64,000 nt of DNA from Bacteriovoracaceae bacterium (lineage in GTDB: Bacteria > Bdellovibrionota > Bacteriovoracia > Bacteriovoracales > Bacteriovoracaceae), in NCBI GenBank assembly GCA_028101965.1, contig JAOHMI010000001.1, positions 1-64,000 of the forward strand, read 5' to 3'. A program made the translations under genes and the position numbers. Numbering within the stretch: the stretch's first letter is position 1; every line of letters begins with the position of its first letter. Shown here piece after piece: positions 2 through 43,605 of this stretch. The notes under the pieces were generated by a model that saw nothing but the letters and a program-made list of their open reading frames with translations, ran no database searches and was not told the origin of the DNA.

Positions 2-3000
2 CAATCTGAGTTAACAAAATATCGTCTTGCTTATGCTGGGAACTTATTTAGTTTTGGGCGAAATAATAATTCAAGATATGCATTAGAAAAATATTTAGAT
101 CACATTGAAAAAGATATTGATATTCTTAAAAATGTTGATCCGACCTATGAAGATCAGTTTAACCACCTCATGTCTCTAAGGCCCACTCATTTATCAAATG
201 ATAAGTTAGCAGATTTTATCGAATTAGTATCAGTACTAATGGAAGATCAAAATAGCAACTTGTTTAAAGAGACAGCGGCAAATACTGGTCTTGGAGGAAA
301 TGAATTGGCCAAACAATGGAAAAGTTATGGTCTTAAAAAATCAGATGCCCATACTGCCAATTTATTAAATGAACTACAAGTAAGAGATCCAAACTCAGAT
401 GCAGCAAGATTGTCTTTATCAAAAGAGTACTCTCGTGATTTTCGAAAAAGAAAAGAATTAAGACATCAAGATTTAAGATTTTTCTCACAACTACAAAACA
501 AAATTTGGCAAGGAAAGGACCGCAAAGGAGCTGGGTTAAGTTACTCCTCTCACAAGCACTTAGACTTCAATGGTGATAAAAAAATTAGTTTTGATGAAGT
601 GGATAACGATTTTAAAAACAAGTTTGAGAGTTTAATCAAGCAAAGTCAGTATTGTGACTCAGATATACTCTCTGAAGATTGCTTTGGAACAATTATTGAT
701 AAACCCACCCTACTTAATGAAGATGTTATAAAATTATTAGAGATAAAAGCAGGTGAGTTTAATTTTTCTCGTGGAAAAGTTACGGCCAAAGGTGGGCAAG
801 TAGAAGTTCGAAAAGACTTTCATCGTTGGAAAGGAATCAAAGCTAGCTGTTTTAAAAGTTTTGAGGATGATCATTTGCCAACAATTGATTTTAGTAATCT
901 TCCACAGACAGAAGAGTATTTCTTGATATATAAAGAGGAAGGTTTCGATAAAGAAGAAATTAGAAAAAAATATAATGGCCGAGGGTCGAAGTTTAGAAAA
1001 ACGAAACGAGAAGAAGCTTCTGCATATTTAGAGGAGCAAGGATTCGAATACCTTCATGTGACAAATGAATTAATACTTGGTGGTGAAACTAGAGTTTATA
1101 CTGATTTTGGTAATTCTACAGACCGAGAAGAGTCCAGGCGAACAATAATGGATAGTGGAAAACTAAATGTTCCGATCGAAAGTGCGAAAAATTTTGCTCT
1201 AGTTAGTCGATATGGGAACAAGCCTGTATTCTTTGATGAGTGTGGAAAGAAAACAAAGAACCCATCGATTAAAAACCCTCTTTCATCAATGCATGATTAC
1301 TATGAAAATGTTGAGTCCATGAGTGAAAGTCTAAGGATTGCAGAAGAAGCAATAAATAGTAATAAAGTTAATGCTCAAATTATTTCTGAAAATCCGGATT
1401 TGATTCAAAATGATAAAGTTCAAGAGATCATTGTCCATAATCATAACTTAGCGGAAACTGAAATTGAGAAAGCTAGGAGAACAGAAGCAGCAGCTCAAGT
1501 TGCTAGGCATGAATACAATAATGCAATGGAAACAGTAGAAGGGAGAGAGGTCTTAAATGAATCTGGAGAAGAACCATTAGATGGTTCAAAAGTTGACGAT
1601 CTTTCACGTCAAAAAATTAGAATAGATGATGAAATAAGTGCAAGCGAAGCTTATGTGCAGCAGATTGAAGATCAAATATCGAGCAGTAGTAGCGATATTA
1701 CAGGGCCGGCAGTTTTAACAAAAAAGGATAATGGAAGTATTATTTTTGAAGATGATAGTGGAAGCCATGAAATCACAACAGGAAAACCAAAGGTTTCTTA
1801 TTCCTCAGTTGGTTCAAGTGGAGAAAACTTATCTCTTGGGTTTGAGTTAGGACAACCAGGAGTACAAGACTCATTCGGAATGTATAAGATTGATACCAGT
1901 CAATTTGATGATTACATTGTTCAAGATGGTCATGGACAATTATTCAATGTTGAAAATATTAAAAAGTGGGAAGATGAAATAAATGGAATGTCGACAAATG
2001 AAGAACGTATTCATAAGTTTTATACAACAAATTTATCACAGACTAAAAGATGTAAATCTAGGACGTATTCAATCGTTAATAAAAAAGAAGGAACACTTAC
2101 TGTTTACAGCATTTTAGATGGTTCTATTTTAAAGCAAATTCCAATACTAACTGGAAAGAAAGATGGTGATACAAAATTAACCTGGGATGACCCAAAAAGG
2201 TTTAAAACAAATGAGTCTACCACACCCGCAGGTAACTTTACGGTTAAACCAAATAGGGGTGAGCAAAGATATTTAGGATCAAATTATAAAGATTATAACT
2301 ATAATTTATTACCTCTTGTGGATGATAAGGGAAACGAAGGAATCTTTGCGCTTCATCAAGCTCCAGTAAATTCGAGAAGTCGCTATAATGCTTTAAATAA
2401 CGGAGGAAATTCAAGAATGACTAACGGGTGTATCAATGTCACTGAAAATCATTTTCATGAAATTGAAAGCATAATCCCGGGGTGTAAAATTCATATTCTT
2501 CCTGATGAATTTGGAGGAAAGTTTGTGGCTAAAGATGGAGTTTTGAAATTTCATTATTCTGGGCGTGCAGAAGGGTACGAACCTAAAAAGTATAATATAA
2601 CTCCTGCAAATAAAGGAAAAAGTAATACTGCAATTCATATTAATACTTCGAGTGGTTTCTTTCTGCCCTTAGAAGAAGATGTAGCAATGGTTCTTGAAAC
2701 TCAAAAACCTAAATTAAGGGAGTTATATAACTTGTCTGATGCTCTCTATAATGAGTTAGCACATTTGACAATGGCGACAATGGAGCTTGAGTGTGAATCG
2801 GGAGCAGGAGCAAGGAAGTATACTGCAAAGATGCTATTGAGTGCAGATCCAAAAGGGGATGGAGAGTTAATGTTAAGGACTTTCAAAGCATTGTGGCGTT
2901 GGGACCGAAGTGAATTTTCTAAAAGACTTTCGAGAGGGTGTGGGCAAAATAAGTTTGTACCAGAGAAAATTGAAGCTGCCTATGGCATCAAGAAAACTGG

Positions 3001-4456
3001 TTATAACCATATGGTTACGGCCCTAGTAACCTTTGGCGCGATAGCTGAAATGGAAGATGAGCTAAAAGCAATTGAAGATAACTGGCGAAGAGAACAACCT
3101 GATTGTCATTTATTAAACTACCGGCCAAGAGTGAATCTTATTCGTTTTTTATATCGAGGTGGAAGTGGAGCTAGAAAATTAAGAGCTTGTGATATTAATA
3201 CTGAGACAAGTCCTACTTTAGGAGCTGTAAGTAATGCAAGAAGTGGATATAGCGTTTTTGCTCACTTAGAAGGTAATTTTAGCGTTGAAAATGCGGGACG
3301 TGGGCAAGACACACGATTAGGTTTATATGATCAACAAGGAATACAAGTCATCCCTCATAATTATGTTAAGATTGCGAAAAGTCCTCCAGGGAAAGGTTAT
3401 AGTACTTCGAGGCAAAATGTTTATGATGGTTTTATGGAAAATGGTCTGTGCGAACGAATTATATCAACAAGAACCAGAACCGGTTATGATAATAAGGTCA
3501 TTGCAAAAGGAATGAATATTGATGGTAATTGTATTCTTGATCCAGCCGAGGTGGAAAAAAAATTAGTGAGGTTCTATGGGATACAGTATGAATCTATTGG
3601 GATTAAAGTGAGGAAAAAGTTAGAAGAGCCAACTACTGTTACAAGGATCCCTCAATCTCAGGCACGCGTTTTTAAAGATGATTTTGGTGAGGTTGATTTT
3701 GTAGTGTATAAAGAAAACTGCTATAAGGTTGACGATAATTTCAATGTTCTAAAGAAAGGTTTTTCATATATCAATGAATGTTTTTTCTCAACGAGTGATC
3801 TTAGTAATTATTTAGATAATCGTGCAGCGGTATCAATCGCTCTCTATCAAGATTTTACTGGAAGTGATCTACCACCTGAGGTTGTTCCTAAATATGGTTT
3901 GGAGGGATGGAATAATAGATTATTAAATGAAAATGACGGAGAAGATATACTAAACCAGCCAACAATTATTCCTGGTAGACAAGTGGTAAAGGATCGACTG
4001 GAACCCAAAAAAGCAATTTCCCAGTTAAAATATATTGTTGTACATCATACTGCTGATATTGAAGGAGTCGAGCTTAACCCTGAAACCTTACTGAAATCAC
4101 AAATATCAGGGAGAGGATACGGTGATGTGGCGTACAATTACATTATTGATGATTATGAAACTAGCAACGGTAAATTTAAAACCTATGAAGGAAGAAGTTT
4201 AAAAATAAAAGCAGCAGGTGTTAATACTGGAAATCCTAATCCAGATATAAGTTATAATGAAGAGGGTATTCATATTGTTTTAATCGGGAATTTTAATCAA
4301 AGGGCACCCTCGGCGGCAGCATTATCTGAGTTAAAAAGAATGATCAAACATCTTACGGAGGAATATGGAATTCCTCAATCGAATGTAATCAAGCATAGGA
4401 GTGTTGATAGTACAGATTGCCCAGGTAACCATTTTCCTAGTTTGAACTCTCTTTAG
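2..4456 (+). CDS. Giant peptidoglycan-processing protein (YkuD L,D-transpeptidase-like plus amidase_2), 5' end outside window
   Basis: The frame is open back to base 2, so the gene begins upstream of the window and at least 1,484 codons are present; the internal ATG at 170 is probably not the start. A canonical EF-hand loop (DFNGDKKISFDE) lies near 561-596. An L,D-transpeptidase (YkuD) region follows, with TPAGNF near 2227, a His codon at 2354 (FALHQAP) and the presumed nucleophile Cys at 2429 in NGCINV. A helical segment near 2690-3180 is unrecognised. A second DxDxN-like loop sits near 3515. The C-terminus is an N-acetylmuramoyl-L-alanine amidase (amidase_2/PGRP) with zinc ligands His (HHT, 4043-4048), His (KHR, 4394) and Cys (DCPG, 4418). 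Family knowledge implies it cross-links or exchanges peptides and cuts stem peptides from glycan. That both activities work in one chain is inference. Confidence 0.85.
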   Translation, partial: QSELTKYRLAYAGNLFSFGRNNNSRYALEKYLDHIEKDIDILKNVDPTYEDQFNHLMSLRPTHLSNDKLADFIELVSVLMEDQNSNLFKETAANTGLGGNELAKQWKSYGLKKSDAHTANLLNELQVRDPNSDAARLSLSKEYSRDFRKRKELRHQDLRFFSQLQNKIWQGKDRKGAGLSYSSHKHLDFNGDKKISFDEVDNDFKNKFESLIKQSQYCDSDILSEDCFGTIIDKPTLLNEDVIKLLEIKAGEFNFSRGKVTAKGGQVEVRKDFHRWKGIKASCFKSFEDDHLPTIDFSNLPQTEEYFLIYKEEGFDKEEIRKKYNGRGSKFRKTKREEASAYLEEQGFEYLHVTNELILGGETRVYTDFGNSTDREESRRTIMDSGKLNVPIESAKNFALVSRYGNKPVFFDECGKKTKNPSIKNPLSSMHDYYENVESMSESLRIAEEAINSNKVNAQIISENPDLIQNDKVQEIIVHNHNLAETEIEKARRTEAAAQVARHEYNNAMETVEGREVLNESGEEPLDGSKVDDLSRQKIRIDDEISASEAYVQQIEDQISSSSSDITGPAVLTKKDNGSIIFEDDSGSHEITTGKPKVSYSSVGSSGENLSLGFELGQPGVQDSFGMYKIDTSQFDDYIVQDGHGQLFNVENIKKWEDEINGMSTNEERIHKFYTTNLSQTKRCKSRTYSIVNKKEGTLTVYSILDGSILKQIPILTGKKDGDTKLTWDDPKRFKTNESTTPAGNFTVKPNRGEQRYLGSNYKDYNYNLLPLVDDKGNEGIFALHQAPVNSRSRYNALNNGGNSRMTNGCINVTENHFHEIESIIPGCKIHILPDEFGGKFVAKDGVLKFHYSGRAEGYEPKKYNITPANKGKSNTAIHINTSSGFFLPLEEDVAMVLETQKPKLRELYNLSDALYNELAHLTMATMELECESGAGARKYTAKMLLSADPKGDGELMLRTFKALWRWDRSEFSKRLSRGCGQNKFVPEKIEAAYGIKKTGYNHMVTALVTFGAIAEMEDELKAIEDNWRREQPDCHLLNYRPRVNLIRFLYRGGSGARKLRACDINTETSPTLGAVSNARSGYSVFAHLEGNFSVENAGRGQDTRLGLYDQQGIQVIPHNYVKIAKSPPGKGYSTSRQNVYDGFMENGLCERIISTRTRTGYDNKVIAKGMNIDGNCILDPAEVEKKLVRFYGIQYESIGIKVRKKLEEPTTVTRIPQSQARVFKDDFGEVDFVVYKENCYKVDDNFNVLKKGFSYINECFFSTSDLSNYLDNRAAVSIALYQDFTGSDLPPEVVPKYGLEGWNNRLLNENDGEDILNQPTIIPGRQVVKDRLEPKKAISQLKYIVVHHTADIEGVELNPETLLKSQISGRGYGDVAYNYIIDDYETSNGKFKTYEGRSLKIKAAGVNTGNPNPDISYNEEGIHIVLIGNFNQRAPSAAALSELKRMIKHLTEEYGIPQSNVIKHRSVDSTDCPGNHFPSLNSL

Positions 4457-41345: not shown

Positions 41346-41435
41346 GGAGGATTGGCCGAGTGGTCGAAGGCGCACGCTTGGAAAGCGTGTAACGGGGCAA
41401 CTCGTTCGAGGGTTCGAATCCCTTGTCCTCCGCCA
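41346..41435 (+). tRNA. tRNA-Ser (anticodon GGA)
   Basis: The 90-nt cloverleaf has acceptor GGAGGAT pairing with GTCCTCC (one G-T pair), the anticodon loop CTTGGAAAG with anticodon GGA, a long class II variable arm (AACGGGGCAACTCGTT), TPsiC arm GGTTCGAATCC and encoded CCA. Its 3' part is repeated downstream at 41729 and 43206, marking a probable integration site. Confidence 0.96.
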
Positions 41436-41557
41436 TTCAAATAAAAACCCTTCATCTACGTCGTCATCACTACACCTCAAGCTTAGTCACTTACTAATGT
41501 ATGCTCCTTCGCTTTCGTTTGCTCTTCCTAGAGAATGAAGGGTTTTTAATTGAATGG
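41433..41557 (+). terminator. Long stem-loop directly after tRNA-Ser
   Basis: Arms at 41433-41455 and 41535-41557 (23 nt each) are reverse complements at 22 of 23 positions around a 79-nt loop. The inner stem ends CCCTTCAT/ATGAAGGG followed by TTTTTAATT, so it can act as an intrinsic terminator with an unusually long loop. The first arm begins with the tRNA's own CCA. Confidence 0.65.
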
Positions 41558-41570
41558 TTTGGGTTTAACT

Positions 41571-41751
41571 AGGGATTCGAATCGAAGTGAAAGGCATGCT
41601 GAGTGAGCTGGGAAGACAATCGCTCTTGCTCATGTCTTCATTCGTAGGTCCTTGTACATCATTCGAGCGACAGTGAGCGAAGGAGAGCCAACGCAATGAA
41701 TGAGCATGATGCGACTGAATGTAGTGGGCGAATCCCTTGTCCTCGGTCATT
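41571..41751. repeat. Second tRNA-like tail with inverted AGGGATTCG
   Basis: AGGGATTCG (41571-41579) and CGAATCCCT (41729-41737) are perfect reverse complements enclosing 149 nt of GC-richer DNA. The right copy is part of the imperfect tRNA-Ser 3'-end duplication. The interior contains GCGAAGGAG, the complement of CTCCTTCGC in the tRNA-Ser hairpin loop, so it looks like an inverted, diverged copy of the post-tRNA element. Confidence 0.5.
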
Positions 41752-41863
41752 GTTAATTAAATATTTGTTATTATTGAGCTTTTTAATATTTATTCGCTTC
41801 AAGCTAACATCTTTTAATATCTAGATACTTTATCAATTGTTTGTCGATTATTTTAATTTTTTT

Positions 41864-42327
41864 CTACTTATAATCTTTTTGAACTTTGTCCTCACAGAAC
41901 ATATTGGTTATAAGAAAATCATTTTGATTATCTGAAAAATTACTTATCACATCTATTCCATTAAAGTTTTCGTAGAAATCAAAATCTACAAGAAAAATTT
42001 TATTATTTTTGTCTTTTATCCTTGAAATCTGATCAAAATTATTTTTGAGAATTTTTGGATCGATATATTTAAGTAAAAACTCTATATTAAGAATATCGAT
42101 TTATCATCATCAACTACAATAATTTCATTTGTTTCATGTATGATCTTAATTTTGTTTTCAACTTTGAACTCAGCGAGGGGTATTGATATAATAGAGGAAG
42201 CTTCGTTTATAAAATTTTTGTCAAGACTTAAGTCCCCTCCCCATTTTTGGAGTGTAGATTTTGAATGAAAAAAGCCTAAACCATTATCTTTTTCTTTTCC
42301 AGAAGAGAAGTTCTTTTCAAAACTCTT
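41864..42327 (-). pseudogene. Remnant of histidine kinase ATPase end plus receiver-like segment
   Basis: Read on the minus strand from 42327, NFSSGKEKDNGLGFFSFK is an HATPase G2 box region, and after removing one A from an A5 run near 42243 it continues WGGDLSLDKNFINEASSIIS. Next comes IIVVDDDKSI, a receiver start; a 2-bp (AT) excess there restores LNIEFLLKYIDP and FLVDFDFYENFNGIDVI, ending at 41864. The N-terminal part is missing: a stop and a sequence junction lie at about 42328-42331. It is clearly a decayed hybrid-kinase-like gene inside the island. Confidence 0.65.
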
Positions 42328-42331
42328 TTAA

Positions 42332-42442
42332 AAAGATAAAGATATGTATGGAAAACAAATTGAAGATATTTATATAAAGAAAAATGAAACTTCATTGATT
42401 TTAAACTATGATAATGAAATTTATGAGGATGACATAGATTAG
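42332..42442 (+). pseudogene. 3' fragment of a truncated gene, abutting the glyoxalase-like gene
   Basis: An open stretch of about 36 codons (MYGKQIEDIYIKKNETSLIL at 42344 onward) ends with TAG directly before the next ATG. No ribosome binding site precedes it, and it begins at the same junction where the minus-strand kinase remnant breaks off. It is probably the tail of a deleted upstream operon gene; a tiny real gene cannot be excluded. Confidence 0.4.
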
Positions 42443-43054
42443 ATGGGGAATTTATTTTTAGATCATATCGTTATTGGAGCAAACTATACTTTTATAAAGG
42501 AAGTTTTTGAAAAACTAAATTTGGTTCCCAGTCCATATAAAGTTCAAGAAAAAATGAATACTAAGAACTATATTTTGGTATTAAGAGATAATTGTTATGT
42601 TGAGTTTCTTTGTATTAATGATGAACATAAAGAATCTTTCTTGAGCAATATGAAAAGGCCAAAATTACTAAGCATTATGGTTGGTACTTCAGACATAAAT
42701 TCAAGTTTGAAATTGTTTAATAAGTTTAATTTAGCCTATTCTGAATACCAGCTTCTTGAAAATAAATATAGAGATCTTTTTCATAAGTGGAAATTATCAA
42801 AGTATCCTATAATAAATAAAAATATTAATCAGACTAGGCCACATTTAATTGAATGGATAGATGGAAAACATCCTTCACTATTAAATCCTAAAAGTTCTCT
42901 AACAATTGATATATCAATTAATTCAAAGGCCAAAGAAGAACTAGATCTTTACTTCAATCAAATTGATAATGTAATAGTTAAAAGTAGCATTGAAGAAGAG
43001 AGTGTTAATATCGAATTAAAGAATGACTCTGGTTTTAAGTTTGTACTTATTTAG
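42443..43054 (+). CDS. Glyoxalase-like (VOC superfamily) protein
   Basis: This 203-residue cytoplasmic protein begins FLDHIVIGANYTFIKEVFE, the first beta-alpha unit of a VOC/glyoxalase-like fold with the usual metal-binding His, then NTKNYILVLRDNCYVEFLCI, where Glu is a second potential ligand. RPHLIEWIDGKHPS supplies further candidates in the second module. This matches the glyoxalase-like type 3 domain family, whose substrates are mostly unknown. It is the only intact gene of the tRNA-Ser island and may be cargo. Confidence 0.78.
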   Translation: MGNLFLDHIVIGANYTFIKEVFEKLNLVPSPYKVQEKMNTKNYILVLRDNCYVEFLCINDEHKESFLSNMKRPKLLSIMVGTSDINSSLKLFNKFNLAYSEYQLLENKYRDLFHKWKLSKYPIINKNINQTRPHLIEWIDGKHPSLLNPKSSLTIDISINSKAKEELDLYFNQIDNVIVKSSIEEESVNIELKNDSGFKFVLI

Positions 43055-43205
43055 TAATTCTTGTTCGTATCTTGTTCGCATCAAACATGAAATAACATGA
43101 AATATTATGAAATATTATGAATTATGAAGTGATGAAATATTAGCTAAGCGTCTAGAATTAAAATAAAAGTCAATGATGCTCAATCGTTAGAATAGCACTC
43201 TTTTA
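43055..43205. repeat. Short tandem repeats near the right att-like copy
   Basis: CTTGTTCG occurs twice at 43069-43087, then variants of ATGAAATATT are repeated about five times (43086-43141). This stretch lies 65 nt before the perfect tRNA-Ser 3'-end copy at 43206. Confidence 0.55.
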
Positions 43206-43316
43206 AATCCCTTGTCCTCCGCCATTTTTATAAATTGGATCTACAAATTGAATGACATATTATAATTCAATCAAAAAGCAGATCCATCAATTAGTTATTT
43301 GTTATAAGTAATAAAT

Positions 43317-43605
43317 CTATCTTTGTTTTTGCTTTGAATTTTTACTTTGGTAATCGTTTACATCCTCTAAAAGTAAATCATGTAAACTATCAATATCATC
43401 ATTTTCACCAGGGGGTAAGCTTACTAAAAAAGTCATCACATGTAGACACATCCACGGCCATACAATCTTCACCAAAGTCTCCCGTGTAATCGACTCCTTC
43501 GATGCAACCACCCTGCTGAGATCCATTACAAAAATAAATTGTATCTGCATTCACTGTAAATAAAGTTGTTAAAGCAATCATTAATGTAATAATTTTAATA
43601 GTCAT
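43317..43605 (-). CDS. Small secreted Cys-rich protein with a probable 1-bp frameshift
   Basis: ATG 43605 follows GGAGGA at 6 nt and encodes a signal peptide (ending FTVNA) and a mature part with YFCNGSQQGGC and EDCMAVDVSTCDD. The frame stops at 43405. An A6 run on the plus strand (43426-43431) separates it from an acidic extension in another frame (SLPPGENDDIDSLHDLL). Removing one base yields a 95-residue protein ending at 43317. The nearby G5 run could also be the site. No family recognised. Confidence 0.6.

Follow-up and report, generated by a model that had tools for sequence, protein, structure and literature searches.

A probable array of rtT-like, tRNA-tracking folded units with a small accessory insert behind tRNA-Ser(GGA) of a Bacteriovoracaceae bacterium

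We propose, with a probability of roughly three in four, that the DNA directly downstream of tRNA-Ser(GGA) in a Bacteriovoracaceae bacterium is an array of rtT-like units which track their local tRNA, and that this array is interrupted by a small accessory insert. The stretch that we analysed, called the window hereafter, comprises positions 1 to 64,000 of contig JAOHMI010000001.1 of assembly GCA_028101965.1. One period of the array consists of R (the 3' end of the tRNA), A (a spacer, often with a terminator-like hairpin), R' (an inverted T-arm), a core B and a further R. The R'-B-R units form a well-supported class, for which we demonstrate the anatomy, the covariation, the fit of R and R' to the upstream tRNA, the occurrence behind many types of tRNA and the existence of E. 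coli alleles that differ by one period. The units resemble the little-understood rtT RNA of E. coli, that is, a known architecture which is found here in another phylum.

The features of the locus are collected in Table 1. A preliminary description of this DNA had reported that the 3' end of tRNA-Ser recurs downstream, perfectly at the distal copy and imperfectly at the middle one, and its coordinates proved right. The sequence AATCCCTTGTCCTCCGCCATT occurs exactly at 41417-41437 and at 43206-43226 and with two mismatches at 41731-41751; there is no fourth place in the window at up to three mismatches, and 100 shuffled windows yielded no match at all, which places the recurrence far above chance and led us to reject a chance origin of the R copies. 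In the source genome (an assembly that is 66.6% complete, with the window as contig C1), a 19-nt form of R at up to two mismatches is found at four places, three of which belong to the tRNA-Ser(GGA) locus. What we do not retain is the interpretation of the three copies as attachment (att) sites of two tandem insertions. Copy 2 closes a folded unit that is conserved and recurs downstream of tRNAs for 16 amino acids. Such units are mostly free of cargo, are laid out like the rtT repeats of E. coli and, in the 71 cases compared in 11 genomes, never lie within 2 kb of an integrase match. Only the step from 41731 to 43206 still looks like an insertion.

Table 1. Features of the tRNA-Ser(GGA) locus, in window coordinates
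Feature	Position	Strand	Basis and remarks
tRNA-Ser(GGA)	41346-41435	+	ARAGORN call; Rfam tRNA 52.4 bits
R, first repeat of the array (last ~20 nt of tRNA-Ser(GGA))	from 41415; common to copy 3 over 41417-41437	+	
Spacer A, long hairpin starting at CCA, with terminator-like T run	41433-41557	+	arms 41433-41455 / 41535-41557, 96% complementary
R', inverted copy of the tRNA-Ser(GGA) T-arm	41570-41581	+	11/12 match
rtT-like folded unit R'-B-R	41570-41749	+	covariance model R1, 70.2 bits; outside the training set
R copy 2, closing the unit	41729-41751	+	first 16 nt exact, 2 mismatches among the last 7
Possible histidine-kinase remnant (weak), 80-aa open stretch	42088-42327	-	HATPase_c E=0.2, 12.5 bits (cut-off 26.4)
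32-codon open frame, fragment or small gene	42344-42442	+	no Pfam match
Glyoxalase-like gene, intact, accessory	42443-43054	+	Glyoxalase_3 E=7.1e-8
R copy 3	43206-43226	+	exact over 21 nt; no unit before it
Weak hairpin 3' of R copy 3, where a tRNA spacer hairpin would lie	43236-43286	+	fold of 43195-43330, -14.4 kcal/mol

In the alignment, the window unit is longer than most units and carries an additional stretch within its second hairpin. A 61-codon open frame runs antisense to it on the minus strand (41565-41750); annotation may mistake frames of this kind, derived from tRNA-end repeats, for genes of small proteins.

The first ~300 nt 3' of tRNA-Ser(GGA) are a dispersed repeat, which the preliminary description had missed. 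When the source genome was queried with 41436-42340, the same repeat was also found behind its tRNA-Asp (as two tandem units), its tRNA-Ser(GCT) and its tRNA-Trp, and these copies terminate in the 3' end of their own local tRNA, not in that of tRNA-Ser(GGA). Sixty tRNAs of three genomes were surveyed with up to two mismatches allowed within 3 kb; several of them lay near contig ends, and some tRNAs of these genomes were not included. The last 18 nt of the tRNA itself recurred downstream in 6/18, 4/21 and 4/21 tRNAs; in the control, the ends of other tRNAs fell within 600 nt in 18 of 2962 pairs. Some units look old, judging by the tRNA-Phe units of the source genome and of a second genome (G014), whose flanks appear alike by eye on both sides. 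At one locus of the source genome (L133, contig C101, ~2600-4060), an ISL3-type transposase gene separates tRNA-His from its unit, and the copy of the tRNA end hence lies 1.6 kb from the tRNA, a plain IS insertion. Behind a minus-strand tRNA-Asp of genome G061 (L087), a shorter additional R copy is situated ~170 nt past the unit; it has its own terminator-like hairpin but lacks an associated unit.

Moreover, the units are spread over several families of the Bdellovibrionota. Under strict filters, 46 of 240 phylum genomes had matches to the covariance model R1 and 194 had none. A core-motif scan of genome contigs returned four records, titled Bdellovibrionota, Bdellovibrio, Bacteriovoracaceae and Oligoflexia, and nothing was found when viral contigs were scanned with core motifs, a negative that says little because the first core pattern recovered just 1 of 217 loci. 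The tracking of the local tRNA was assessed on 75 distinct units, obtained from 80 matches after exclusion of L218-L221 and one repeated sequence; they represent the best-scoring units of each genome plus 20 chosen stretches and are not a random sample. An upstream tRNA on the same strand is present in 65/75 units, and four of the ten units that have none also have less than 200 nt in front of them. Among 50 units outside the training set, R differs from the local tRNA by 0-1 mismatches of 18 in 35, compared with 1 of 4054 pairs in a control with swapped tRNAs, which takes in all 65 units, training ones included. R' has at most three mismatches of 12 in 46/50 of the out-of-sample units against 1403/4054 swapped pairs, and at most one in 21/50 against 120/4054. 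The fit of R is incomplete in other out-of-sample units (at least two mismatches in 15/50, at least eight in 8/50), and in several units (L174, L179, L182, L080 and L249) R has decayed, yet R' still matches the tRNA with 0-2 mismatches. In the training units, R is exact in 12 of 15, with 4, 10 and 10 mismatches in the remaining three. The tRNAs upstream of the 50 units carry 25 anticodons for 16 amino acids. By a loose test applied without a control, a terminator-like hairpin precedes 42/62 units, and transcription of these units would thus require read-through or a promoter of their own.

The fold is closed by pairing between R' and the portion of the distal R that corresponds to the T-arm. 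Our structure, built on 15 aligned units, has 31 pairs in five helices, the first of which is R' with R. In this alignment, where scoring favours the structure because it was drawn up on the same 15 units, paired cells make up 87.1% compared with 69.5% after shuffling, cells changed on both sides number 92 compared with 29.5, and covariation reaches 0.490 compared with 0.182, with 0 of 500 shuffles as high on the three measures. Sliding of the pairing partners lowers covariation in the same alignment to 0.109 or less, and for 53 distinct model-fitted units it is 0.581 against 0.170. The paired columns contain 118 G-T against 27 A-C combinations, a surplus which comes in part from one mostly G-U pair and which speaks for an RNA that is read in the direction of the tRNA. 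That the site is kept by its fold rather than its sequence is borne out by the covariation of R'/R and of the inner helices, as an RNA would likewise predict. From these base-pair changes and from the E. coli case we infer that the units are of RNA nature; by analogy with E. coli, transcriptional read-through probably yields a transcript of the unit, which would then be trimmed to a small RNA ending in a tRNA-like tail.

The repeats at E. coli tyrT have a long history. In the tyrT-tyrV rtT/RttR repeats (Rfam RF00391, RtT), an R' that departs from tRNA-Tyr at 2-3 of 12 positions is followed by a core and an exact R of 18 nt, and the Rfam RtT model covers the tyrT/tyrV unit. E. coli rtT thus shares with our units the place behind a tRNA, the R'-core-R layout and the tandem periods, but its core sequence and helices are unlike theirs, and, unlike E. 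coli rtT, the Bdellovibrionota units follow tRNAs of 16 amino acids. In addition, E. coli proK (tRNA-Pro), also in K-12, is followed by a unit whose R equals proK's own end. Two of six strains compared at proK lack exactly one period, from tRNA end to tRNA end and including the terminator, and the two shorter alleles keep a truncated unit that leads into a REP-like repeat. Since the proK alleles differ by a whole period, such arrays appear to grow and shrink as tandem repeats. Places like the proK unit (at least 80% covered) are present in 2659/5426 genomes, and places like the tyrV unit number 1 to 14 per genome, with a median of 3, in the 4695 matching genomes. The rtT-type unit behind proK of K-12 (L265) carries no annotation in its record, and records of other strains call theirs RtT. 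In an E. coli plasmid record (pMY504-2, L263), an RtT unit lies in a chromosomal-looking stretch together with two tRNA-Tyr genes and an IS4-type transposase.

We also considered whether the units are members of the Rfam RtT model and rejected this, as the model reaches neither the window nor the units of the phylum. In the window it gave no match at the gathering threshold and none at E values up to 5, and in 230 phylum genomes it gave none above the cut-off of 45 bits. The sole match in these 230 genomes, below the cut-off at 28.2 bits (per-genome E 0.002), lies on the minus strand of L264 (1501-1656) directly behind tRNA-Ser(TGA), with R matching at 18/18; it may represent a second, more rtT-like type of unit in the Bdellovibrionota. 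By eye, units in L084, L086, L088 and L089 resemble the L264 type. Applied to the E. coli units, R1 finds the right place but scores only 7.8-13.2 bits, the tyrT spacer unit giving 13.2 bits. Since RtT misses our units and R1 is weak on those of E. coli, common descent with rtT is not proved. Published work (PMC4986893, PMC2965389, PMC2267715) reports rtT from E. coli tyrT and, via an Rfam match, from Pasteurellaceae, states that it modulates the stringent response, and places relatives near the tRNA-Asn / tRNA-Lys genes of Actinobacillus.

When cores are compared with R' and R excluded, the nearest neighbour (n=62) lies in the same genome behind another tRNA in 34 cases, behind a tRNA of the same isotype elsewhere in 5 and in neither setting in 23. 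Mean core identity is 0.715 for the same genome and another tRNA (104 pairs), 0.633 for the same isotype elsewhere (117 pairs) and 0.624 for neither (1663 pairs), and in one genome (G194) the cores behind tRNA-Ser(CGA) and tRNA-Ser(GCT) are 99% identical. The idea that units travel with integrases was rejected, or at least weakened, by a distance test in 11 genomes, G046 standing outside both the sample of 240 genomes and this test. There, 58 integrase matches were compared with 71 of the 74 unit matches; none lay within 2 kb of a unit and the nearest was 2.7 kb away, start to start, with many contigs so short that distances were often not measurable. Six integrases in G000, G014 and G046 adjoin and face the 3' ends of tRNAs that have no R copy in the downstream sequence searched. 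On contig C9 of the source genome (L134), a tyrosine integrase gene (2346-2843) faces the 3' end of a tRNA-Cys (2967-3044, minus strand), a candidate for an ordinary tRNA-integrated island.

The part of the preliminary description that saw foreign DNA at this locus stands for the stretch between R copies 2 and 3. These copies of the tRNA end enclose accessory DNA, and the glyoxalase-like protein encoded there has a counterpart in 0 of 94 other genomes of the family. Regarding the gene content, the glyoxalase-like gene is intact as described, but the minus-strand kinase remnant is weak, its HATPase_c match falling below the cut-off. The segment had correctly been said to lack an integrase, as C1 has no PF00589 match at E 1e-5, and the search of the whole genome that had been suggested does return PF00589 matches, which lie on C9, C132 and C144 of the source genome and not on C1. 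Relatives carrying the same 1.8 kb with ordinary vertical divergence, which had been named as the observation that would count against an island, were not found: 12 of 12 tRNA-Ser(GGA) loci of relatives, namely the plus-strand calls in L002-L020, for which the correspondence of downstream genes was not established, have no R copy within 1.5 kb.

Cargo between R copies is found in three genera, in the window, at L083 and at L084. In another genus (G046), the unit at the same tRNA is followed by R copies that enclose a different gene, which is absent from seven other genomes tested; upstream of the tRNA, the window and G046 have the same deaminase gene (52% identity). In a further genome of another genus (G038, L083), a HEPN/MNT-like pair (NTase_sub_bind and NTP_transf_2, 3283-4028) and a beta-propeller lipoprotein are situated between two complete units at tRNA-His; for cargo outside the window PADLOC gave weak candidates, including this pair. 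A survey that began with 20 loci, two of them without a tRNA, found no R copy past 480 nt at up to one mismatch in 18 further unit loci with a tRNA (14 with ~15 kb and 4 with less than 5 kb downstream), and we therefore regard cargo as the exception. An insertion at the terminal R of the unit fits the order seen, namely tRNA, unit, R, cargo, R, whereas an insertion at the tRNA itself would push the unit away from the tRNA and does not fit it.

We believe that, with the R within the tRNA as the first repeat of the array, exchange or slippage among R copies may add or remove periods. A change by whole periods would then keep R equal to the tRNA end, and pairing would keep R' in step with R. Cores may also be copied among the tRNA loci of one genome and adopt the local R. 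In the window, ~1.45 kb of accessory DNA probably entered at the terminal R of the unit and would have left R copies on both sides, most likely through site-specific recombination by an integrase that may act in trans or may since have been lost. This mechanism of entry is the least certain part of our verdict.

An alternative that is possible, and in our view rather doubtful, is that the array once had two periods and that ordinary recombination put foreign DNA in place of the second period's body, sparing only its last R. Tandem periods do exist behind tRNA-Asp of the source genome and in E. coli, and the cargo at L083 lies between two complete units; however, inspection by eye shows no remnant of a second spacer or core where the cargo begins or ends, and these borders coincide with the R copies. 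We consider it unlikely that the locus is a decayed or cis-mobilised island at tRNA-Ser in which all three copies are att sites of two tandem insertions. Islands integrated into tRNA genes by tyrosine integrases are alike in that direct repeats of a tRNA 3' end flank accessory genes, and the accessory DNA enclosed by an exact 21-nt repeat, as well as the integrases facing tRNA 3' ends in the source genome (C9, beside tRNA-Cys) and in related genomes, agree with such an origin. In the window, by contrast, the contig has no integrase and the tRNA-proximal repeat belongs to a folded unit, which is seen behind many tRNAs without cargo; integrases do not lie near units, many contigs being short, and an island inserted at the tRNA would split the unit from the tRNA, yet the unit adjoins it.

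The least probable of the readings that we weighed is that R'-B-R is a folded, attC-like attachment site at which a tyrosine recombinase swaps cassettes behind any tRNA. The attC sites of integrons have inverted ends kept by structure, and integron cassettes and our units are alike in having inverted ends kept by their fold and occasional gene cargo between repeated sites. An R'/R pair kept by pairing and not by sequence, cargo between R copies in three genera and cores common to several tRNAs of one genome would all be in line with such cassettes, but the G-T surplus over A-C and the conserved G-U pair point to RNA, the 18 further loci without a distal R copy do not fit, and integrases, searched as the general PF00589 family, are not close. 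Unlike integron cassettes, the units show no linked recombinase, rare cargo and signs of selection at the level of RNA. It also seems to us highly improbable that the whole phylum carries tRNA-anchored folded cassettes, in which one machinery recognises R'-B-R by its fold and inserts, copies and exchanges units, sometimes with cargo, behind any tRNA, each copy adopting the local tRNA end; R would then have two roles, as the tail of an RNA that mimics tRNA and as a reserve target that protects the tRNA gene against elements that integrate.

Finally, our searches of open-licence papers showed no account of units like these in the Bdellovibrionota, and none that presents tRNA tracking as general. 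If two dozen anticodons of another phylum are followed by this architecture, and both of its arms track the local tRNA, a duplicated tRNA end need not be an att scar, which is a caution for island finders that take tRNA-end repeats as proof of integration. Moreover, if the architecture is so widespread, a general role in tRNA transcripts or in the upkeep of tRNA genes becomes testable.
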